Source: Halostella pelagica
GTDB lineage: Archaea; Halobacteriota; Halobacteria; Halobacteriales; Natronoarchaeaceae
Direction: 5' to 3'
Length of the DNA: 64,000 nt
Assembly (NCBI GenBank): GCA_005954745.1
Contig: CP040678.1
Span: 1,798,001 to 1,862,000, forward strand
In this document: piece by piece, positions 884-39,130 of the stretch
How positions within the stretch are numbered: the stretch's first letter is position 1
Layout: each line of letters opens with the position of its first letter
The notes under the pieces: model-generated
The model's input: the letters and a program-made list of their open reading frames with translations, nothing else
What the model was told of the DNA's origin: nothing
Databases searched by the model: none
Made by a program: the position numbers and the translations under genes

Positions 884-2123
884 TCAGGCGTGGACCTCCT
901 CCTGTTCGCGGTCGATGCCCTCCTCTCGGGCGAACTCTTTCAGGTCGGTCATGGTGACGCGCTGTTTCTCCGCGCCGTAGTCCTTGACGCGTCGAGTGAC
1001 GGCGCGTACCTCGTCGTCGCTCGGGTTGAAGCCCGCGTCCTGCAGGCGTTCTCGTACCGAGTGATTGCCGGTGTGCTTGCCCAGTACCAGTTCCCGCTGT
1101 GCACCGACCATCCCGGGCGTCATGACGCCCGGCTCGAAGGTGTCGGAGTTCTCGATGACGCCCGCGGCGTGGATGCCGCTTTCGTGGGCGAACGCGTTGT
1201 CGCCGACGACGGGCTTGTTGCCCGGTACGTCGACGCCCGACTTCTCCTCGACTAGCCGCGAGAGCGCGGTGATACCGGTCGTGTCGATGCCGGTGTCGAC
1301 CTGATAGACGCTCTCTATCGCCATCACGAACTCCTCGTAGGCTGCGTTGCCCGCGCGCTCCCCGATGGAGTTGACGCTGACCTGCGCCTGGTCGGCCCCG
1401 GCCTCGATGCCGGAGATGGCGTTCGCGGTCGCCATCCCGAAGTCGTCGTGCGTGTGCACGTCGACGCGGGCGGTCGTGTGCTCACAGACCATCTCGATCA
1501 GGTCGTGGAACCGCCGCGGCGTCGCGACACCGCAGGTGTCGGGGACGTTGATCCAGTCGGTTCCCGCCTCGGTGACGGCCTCGATTATCTCGACCAGGAA
1601 CGCCTCGTCCGTCCGCGTGGCGTCCATCGGCGAGTACATTACTTCGACGCCGGCGTCTCGCAGGCGGGAGACGGCGTCGACGGACCGTTCCATCACCTGC
1701 TCGCGGGTCGCGTGCATCGAATCCTCTATCTGCACGTCGCTGGTGGACGCGAACACGTGCACCATCTCGACGCCAGCGTCGAGGGCCGCTTCGATGTCCT
1801 TGTCGACGACGCGGGCCAGCCCGCAAACCGTCGTATCTGTGCTTTTAGCGATGTCGCTTACGGCCTCGAACTCGGCGTCGGAGTTGACGGGGAACCCGGC
1901 TTCGATGACGTGGGTTCCCATCCGGTCGAGTGCCGTGGCTATCTCGCGTTTGTCCTCGTAGGAGAATGACGTGCGCGGCGACTGCTCCCCGTCGCGGAGC
2001 GTCGTGTCGAAAACTCGTGCGCTGTCTATCTCGCTAGTGGAATCTAACGTGCCCTGGAAGAACTCGATCCCCCCGGCTTGTACCGGAGGACGAATCCATG
2101 GACTGCGTATTGCGCTCAGGCAT
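884..2123 (-). CDS. leuA: 2-isopropylmalate/(R)-citramalate synthase family, with apparent frameshift near the N-terminus
   Basis: This acyl-CoA/2-oxoacid condensing enzyme (DRE-TIM family) performs the first step of leucine synthesis or, as citramalate synthase, of isoleucine synthesis. Visible motifs are VFDTTLRDGEQSPRTSF, the metal site DVHTHDDFGMA and HESGIHAAG; length (about 410 aa) fits. The problem is the start. The only in-frame ATG (2206) lies upstream of the TATA box at 2149-2157, and no in-frame ATG, GTG or TTG follows the promoter until well inside the domain. An ATG at 2123, about 30 bp from that TATA box, opens another frame (MPERNTQSMDSSSGTSRG). That frame would join the LeuA frame at IEFFQGTLDST if the six-G run at 2069-2074 had five G. 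I therefore place the start at 2123 with a one-base frameshift, real or a sequencing error. Confidence 0.85.
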
Positions 2124-2148
2124 GGTATCTGTGTAGGGGCCCTTTCCG

Positions 2149-2157
2149 ATATATAAA
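2149..2157 (-). promoter_or_regulatory. TATA box of leuA
   Basis: TTTATATAT on the minus strand, 26-34 bp upstream of the ATG at 2123, predicts a leaderless or near-leaderless transcript. It rules out the more distal in-frame ATG at 2206 as the start of leuA. Confidence 0.7.
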
Positions 2158-2339
2158 GGTGTCCCTGTGACAGGTTTCGGCGTACATGTTTCGAACATGA
2201 TAACACAGTCGTATTCGGTAAATCGCAAGACGTAGACGGCCTTGTTTTCTACATATTCCTTATACACTACGGAAGGCACGGAGGGAGATGAACTACGTCA
2301 TCGATAGTGATATTGAATAGTTTCCGCCTAGAGCCGTAA

Positions 2340-38571: not shown

Positions 38572-38634
38572 ACGCTGCAGTTCGACAGCCGCGGGCGTTA
38601 ACGTTGCGGGACCGGTCCCGTCTCCCGCGAATCG

Positions 38635-39045
38635 CTACTCACAGGGCATGTCTTCGTCTTCGGAGACGTCCCCGACGAGTACGAGGCCGCACATCGTTCC
38701 CCCGCCGTGGTTCGAACAGTAGTACTCGTATATCCCCTCGAAGTCGAAACTGTGGGCGGCGTTCCCATCGGGCGCTAACTGGAGCGTCGCGTCCCACGAC
38801 TCGGCATCGTCGTGAAACTCGGCGCTCGTCACCGTGTGCCTCGTCGGTTTCGTTGACCCACTCGACGGTCGCACCTTCGGCGGTGCAGAGAACCGGACCG
38901 GGTCGAACGATTCGTCGGTTGTCGTGACCGTCTCGTCGGCAACGTCCTCTTCGCCGTCGCTTCCGTCGCTGTTGCCGTCACCACAGCCAGCGACCAGGGG
39001 AGTCGATAGCGCGGCCGTGGCCGAAAGGAATTTTCGTCGGTTCAT
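38635..39045 (-). CDS. Halocyanin-like blue-copper lipoprotein with two compensating frameshifts
   Basis: A 136-aa Tat-type lipoprotein (MNRRKFLSATAALSTPLVAGCGD) with a plastocyanin-like domain: FDPVRFS, then RHTVTSAEFHDDAESWD and YEYYCSNHGGGTMCGLVLVGD (copper ligands His, Cys, His, Met all visible). Residues between, VRPSSGSTKP, are unlike the family; the same DNA read in the +1 frame (about 38830-38880) gives AEGATVEWVNETDE, exactly the expected halocyanin strand. So one base seems lost near the GCACCG at 38880 and one gained near 38839. The protein is either really altered over about 14 residues, or the sequence carries two errors. Confidence 0.85.
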   Translation of the reverse strand: MNRRKFLSATAALSTPLVAGCGDGNSDGSDGEEDVADETVTTTDESFDPVRFSAPPKVRPSSGSTKPTRHTVTSAEFHDDAESWDATLQLAPDGNAAHSFDFEGIYEYYCSNHGGGTMCGLVLVGDVSEDEDMPCE

Positions 39046-39130
39046 TGTAGCGTCGCCGTATTCGCGGCCTAGAACGGTCCCAAGCGACGCTCCTTAGTGG
39101 TATGTGGGCGACAGGACGAAAGCGATCCGG

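Follow-up and report, generated by a model that had tools for sequence, protein, structure and literature searches.

A probable recent pair of compensatory frameshifting mutations in an archaeal halocyanin-like gene

Compensated Frameshifts in Other Systems

Pairs of compensatory frameshifting mutations (pCFMs) have been described in vertebrates and insects (Biba, Klink and Bazykin 2022, PMC8935012). Such pairs are expected to pass via an uncompensated intermediate and are found in less conserved genes. They span 7-99 bases, and the six high-confidence pairs are composed of a 2-base and a 1-base deletion, in either order, or of a 1-base deletion and a 1-base insertion. For RNA viruses, PMC8127213 describes compensation in which a first indel is succeeded by a second one close by, which restores the frame. 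Among the first ten matches listed for compensatory pairs in bacteria and archaea, within literature covered in part, there was no archaeal case.

The locus described here lies in a stretch of 64,000 nucleotides, referred to as the window, which corresponds to C1:1798001-1862000 of a 3.94-Mb genome in four contigs. As reconstructed below, it resembles the animal pCFMs in that two indels of 1-2 bases would cancel over a short span (here about 47 bases) in a less conserved gene, and the segment between them is unlike the ancestral one. It differs from them in being archaeal, in consisting of a +2/-2 pair, and in that no second species shares the shift. With the viral cases it has in common the nearby secondary indel that restores the frame, although it concerns a cellular DNA gene and not an RNA genome with a high mutation rate.

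The Gene and Its Product

The gene reads as 136 codons without a stop on the minus strand of the window (Table 1). Its product shares a lipoprotein-like signal, the cupredoxin fold and the H...C-x2-H-x4-M ligand pattern with the halocyanin domain proteins (TIGR03102) and the plastocyanin-azurin family (PF00127). All four type 1 copper ligand positions (H70, C110, H113 and M118) are kept, in columns that are invariant in the orthologues of two congeners, G001 and G004. The structure model matches 5fc9, pseudoazurins and plastocyanins with E-values of 1e-7 to 1e-6, although the alignment itself biases the model toward this fold.

The family match is nevertheless incomplete. The window protein scores 18.2 bits against PF00127, below the cut-off of 21.2, and the match covers the C-terminal half (residues 86-124), whereas the orthologues and a homologue lie above the cut-off (35.7, 30.8 and 42 bits), the G001 orthologue (35.7 bits) with the full domain at residues 45-124. 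The shortfall arises because the frameshifted strand stops matching. The TIGR03102 cut-off is not reached by the orthologues either. In AlphaFold models, the pLDDT of residues 51-70 is 76-81 in the window protein versus 97-98 in the orthologue (the alignment consisting of the same 28 sequences for both), and the strand at residues 58-64 is cut to 61-64. The product is presumably altered or impaired, but it is probably still a cupredoxin.

Table 1. Features of the halocyanin-like gene, in window positions.
Feature	Positions	Strand	Remarks
Halocyanin/plastocyanin-like gene	38635..39045	(-)	136 aa; N-terminal RR signal peptide, lipobox-like LVAGC; cupredoxin domain; fold matches cupredoxins
Segment read outside the ancestral frame, residues 54-69 APPKVRPSSGSTKPTR	38839..38886	(-)	+2 frame reads AEGATVEWVNETDEA
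Peptide stretch across the segment			VRPSSGSTKPTR
Ancestral single-frame reading through the segment			SAAEGATVEWVNETDEAHTVTS
Inferred 2-base insertion	38876..38891	(-)	best AC at 38884-38885 (TCTGC[AC]CGCC); alternative CT/TC duplication in TTCTCT; placement ambiguous
Inferred 2-base deletion	38832..38840	(-)	GGCACACGG, probably from GGCACACACGG, one AC unit lost
H70 codon, first copper ligand position	38836..38838	(-)	frame restored here; column invariant in G001, G004
C110-x2-H113-x4-M118, other copper ligands	38692..38718	(-)	intact, in frame

A Segment Read out of Frame

About 15 residues directly before the first copper ligand stand in the wrong frame, while the remainder of the protein is normal. 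In the +2 frame, the DNA of this segment encodes AEGATVEWVNETDEAH, the strand that is conserved in orthologues. Over a longer stretch, the annotated frame reads ...ESFDPVRFSAPPKVRPSSGSTKPTRHTVTSAEF..., and these bases give ...CTAEGATVEWVNETDEAHGD... when read in the +2 frame; it is the alternate-frame peptide, and not the annotated one, that matches the orthologues. At the same locus between the same neighbours, the G001 orthologue reads RRLDVDEGTEVEWVNETDTDHTIVS, and the corresponding strands of the two congeners are ESFDPRRLDVDEGTEVEWVNETDTDHTIVSGRF (G001) and DAFDPQRVEVDESATVEWVDESDTDHAIVSGRF (G004). An earlier note on this DNA had proposed two compensating frameshifts inside a halocyanin-like gene, and its reading frame, strand and coordinates are borne out, as is the match of the alternate frame to orthologues; the frame that encodes the conserved strand is, however, the gene strand's +2 frame, equivalent to -1, and not the +1 frame that it named.

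The alignment with halocyanin-like proteins that the same note had called for gives a consistent picture. A VRPSSGS-like strand occurs in none of the approximately 28 homologues of the order in this alignment. These homologues encode the ancestral strand, and the ancestral frame is therefore present in outgroups. Nearly all of them are without gaps here, and in the window protein, too, SFDP and H are separated by 20 residues. Two residues of the strand, V60 and W62, are at least 90% conserved in an alignment that includes the window protein; they appear exactly in the alternate frame and are lost from the annotated-frame protein.

A frame-aware protein-to-DNA alignment, with a penalty of 16 for each frameshift, gains 33, 27 and 37 BLOSUM units against three homologues after two frameshifts have been paid for. 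When the codon order was shuffled within the segment, none of 1000 shuffles reached the gain of 33 against G001, the best being 22. Under synonymous recoding, a stricter null, the best of 300 replicates was 25 for G001 (0/300 reach 33) and 27 for G004, where one of 300 ties the observed 27; this null errs on the conservative side, since it leaves codon positions 1 and 2, and hence part of the signal, unchanged. Codon usage, which makes no use of homologues and was modelled on 53,935 codons of neighbouring genes, favours frame 0 as far as about 38910 and once more from 38838 onward; between them, 12-codon stretches with starts from 38901 to 38847 favour frame 2, by up to 11 nats (0 -> 2 -> 0). 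In the upstream signal-peptide region this phase test is less clear-cut. When the pair is undone, the score against G001 rises from 329 to 391 and the identities from 60 to 69.

The Two Indels

The distance from the D-P of SFDP to GAAGGT is 20 bases versus 18 in homologues, and that from GAAGGT to the CAC of H70 is 34 bases versus 36. Each of the three alignments accordingly has 2 bases inserted upstream and 2 bases deleted downstream, about 47 bases apart, and the indels are most simply explained as +2/-2. A single-base -1/+1 pair was considered and rejected: it is chosen by the aligner for none of the three homologues, and the spacings that it requires, 7 and 11 residues, depart from the 6 and 12 of nearly all homologues. 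For the insertion, the exact position may vary by up to about 15 bases. The simplest ancestral change would be TCTGC-CGCC to TCTGCACCGCC (38884-38885) together with GGCACACACGG to GGCACACGG (38832-38840), and the sequence restored by undoing both indels is VRFSAAEGATVEWVNETDEAHTVTS. Two features of a pair of compensatory frameshifting mutations, namely indels not divisible by three with the net frame restored and an ancestral frame in outgroups, are found here.

The deletion looks like AC-repeat slippage, in which (AC)3 would have lost one AC, while the insertion has no repeat-slippage origin of this kind. The inferred insertion completes a 5-bp inverted repeat, GCACC-GCCGAA-GGTGC (38871-38886, minus strand). 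Such a stem is formed by about 8% of random 2-base insertions and is therefore only a hint at templated mutation, and quasi-palindrome templating of the insertion was set aside as evidence on this ground.

Origin of the Shift

The explanation that we favour, with a probability of roughly 0.75, is that two mutually compensatory frameshifting mutations really occurred, and recently, in this halocyanin-like lipoprotein gene, which is dispensable and evolves fast. An insertion and a deletion of 2 bases each, one of the two presumably the slippage event described above, would cancel each other and restore the frame, and the annotated frame would be translated throughout. In that case the GATVEWVNE strand would be replaced by KVRPSSGST, while the beta-strands further downstream and all four ligand positions would be preserved. 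The change would be genomic, rather than an error, and redundancy among blue-copper proteins may have let the intermediate survive. Against this explanation, it is a rare event for a single branch to acquire two indels within one short gene.

The surroundings of the gene bear on its dispensability. It is flanked by nnr on one side and a small RNA-binding-like gene on the other, an order that is the same in G001, while in two further congeners, G002 and G003, nnr directly follows the RNA-binding-like gene without a halocyanin gene. Identity to the G001 orthologue is 44%, compared to 85-88% for the neighbours, and 59 of the 119 residues outside the segment are identical; the genome also has 13 other PF00127 places. 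Given its absence from G002 and G003, this low identity and the 13 other places, the gene is dispensable and fast-evolving, with possible substitutes. Within the one genus, the halocyanin-like gene is cleanly present or absent between its two syntenic neighbours (interval 38572-39130 of the window): it is present in G000 (the genome of the window), G001 and G004 and absent from G002 and G003.

A narrower form of the favoured explanation, not exclusive of it, is that this is a decaying copy heading to loss and that the shift is neutral decay, as opposed to a change tolerated in a functioning protein. The absence of the gene from two congeners, the loss of the nearly invariant V60 and W62 and the drop in AlphaFold confidence across the segment are all consistent with decay. 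However, the frame returns just before H70, the ligand positions, the other parts of the domain and the codon usage are intact, and the open reading frame has no stop codon; decay is therefore a tentative suggestion, and less probable than not.

Mutation or Sequencing Error

Sequencing or assembly error, in which the genome has the ancestral frame and both indels exist in the deposited sequence only, is an unlikely alternative to a real mutation pair. The shift is known from one genome only, which counts both for an error and against a real pair. A protein search of genome contigs for a chromosome of the same species or a closer relative gave no match, the alignment-based search of genome contigs returned the known congener and distant relatives alone, and the plasmid collection gave no match. 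In addition, the codon usage and the peptide of the other frame are undegraded in the segment, and a shifted segment without later change fits a recent event and an error equally well.

The accuracy of the assembly can be judged from plasmids. Plasmid CP046868.1 of Salinibaculum litoreum HD8-45 matches a 3.2-kb piece of contig C4 at 100% identity, and CP046867.1, a plasmid from the same source, matches a piece of contig C3 at 99.9%; the genome therefore belongs to this salt-loving species or to a very close one (Haloarculaceae). Compared with the window's assembly, CP046868.1 has one substitution and 23 single-base indels over its 100 kb, and nearly all of these indels fall in short homopolymers. 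At each of the 24 differences, the longer open reading frame is the one in the window's assembly, though marginally so at two (examples are 670 versus 395, 606 versus 399 and 356 versus 120 codons), and the false indels therefore sit in CP046868.1. A plasmid record of this species that is full of false indels indicates that such errors happen in sequencing this organism. However, these are single-base errors, mostly in short homopolymers and in another record, whereas the gene studied here has two 2-base indels outside homopolymers. The plasmid test is carried over to the chromosome by extrapolation. Many of the 23 indels lie in the last 2.5 kb of CP046868.1, and genes called from this record will come out broken.

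On the chromosome, no second well-supported compensated shift was found among 211 orthologous pairs with G001 (63,933 codons, 400 kb). The other conserved genes of the 400 kb show no clear internal frame break, which argues against error, and single frame switches are almost confined to the 5' extensions of stop-to-stop open reading frames. A scan of the same 400 kb by codon usage only is too noisy, since it is dominated by non-coding 5' extensions of this kind and by wrongly picked open reading frames. Close to their 5' ends, the open reading frames at G000:C1:1868398 and G000:C1:1878791 switch frame versus G001, and codon usage on either side supports the switch weakly; extended start sites or genuine N-terminal frameshifts may account for them.

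Two details of the earlier note fall away. It placed possible sequence errors at G/C runs, but the flanks of the breakpoints, TTCTCTGCACCGCC and GAGGCACACGG, contain no run of three or more. It also took leuA (884-2206, minus strand) for a second frameshift case; this gene aligns at 93% to its G001 orthologue with a score of 2068 with and without frameshifts, and thus gives no corroboration of an error-prone sequence. Two 2-base errors outside homopolymers and within 50 bases of each other are unlikely, because the plasmid comparison, the 211-pair scan and leuA are without such errors. Of the two possibilities between which that note did not choose, a recent natural double mutation is favoured; sequence errors lose ground with an assembly that is more accurate than CP046868.1.

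Other Explanations

A bolder version of the real mutation pair is that the shift swapped the strand before the first ligand of a type 1 copper site in an archaeal blue copper protein that would still be working and may have been retuned. The two changes may even be one complex event, since one site gains an AC, which completes the inverted repeat described above, and another, 47 bases away, loses one. This version is improbable.

Ordinary substitutions without any frameshift, with a coincidental match in the alternate frame, are very improbable. The gene is certainly fast-evolving outside the segment as well, and the annotated frame is open, but the codon shuffles never attain the observed gain, the frame preferred by codon usage changes at these same positions, and the near-invariant V60 and W62 sit exactly in the alternate frame. 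Programmed ribosomal frameshifting that restores the conserved strand in translation has in its favour solely that the conserved peptide is still encoded, and is hardly credible given that two opposite shifts would be needed within 50 bases, that neither breakpoint has an obvious slippery heptamer and that no homologue appears to need it.

Implications

The mutation pair is an ordinary, though neat, fresh instance of an already-known type, and the finding leaves the view of the organism's biology unchanged. Alignment of annotated-frame proteins may hide such events, which the codon-usage phase test exposes. The cupredoxin fold allows a simple colour or copper-binding assay of the result. If confirmed by reads, this gene would be a clean and young archaeal case of a protein replacing a stretch of its sequence in two steps while the frame is kept.
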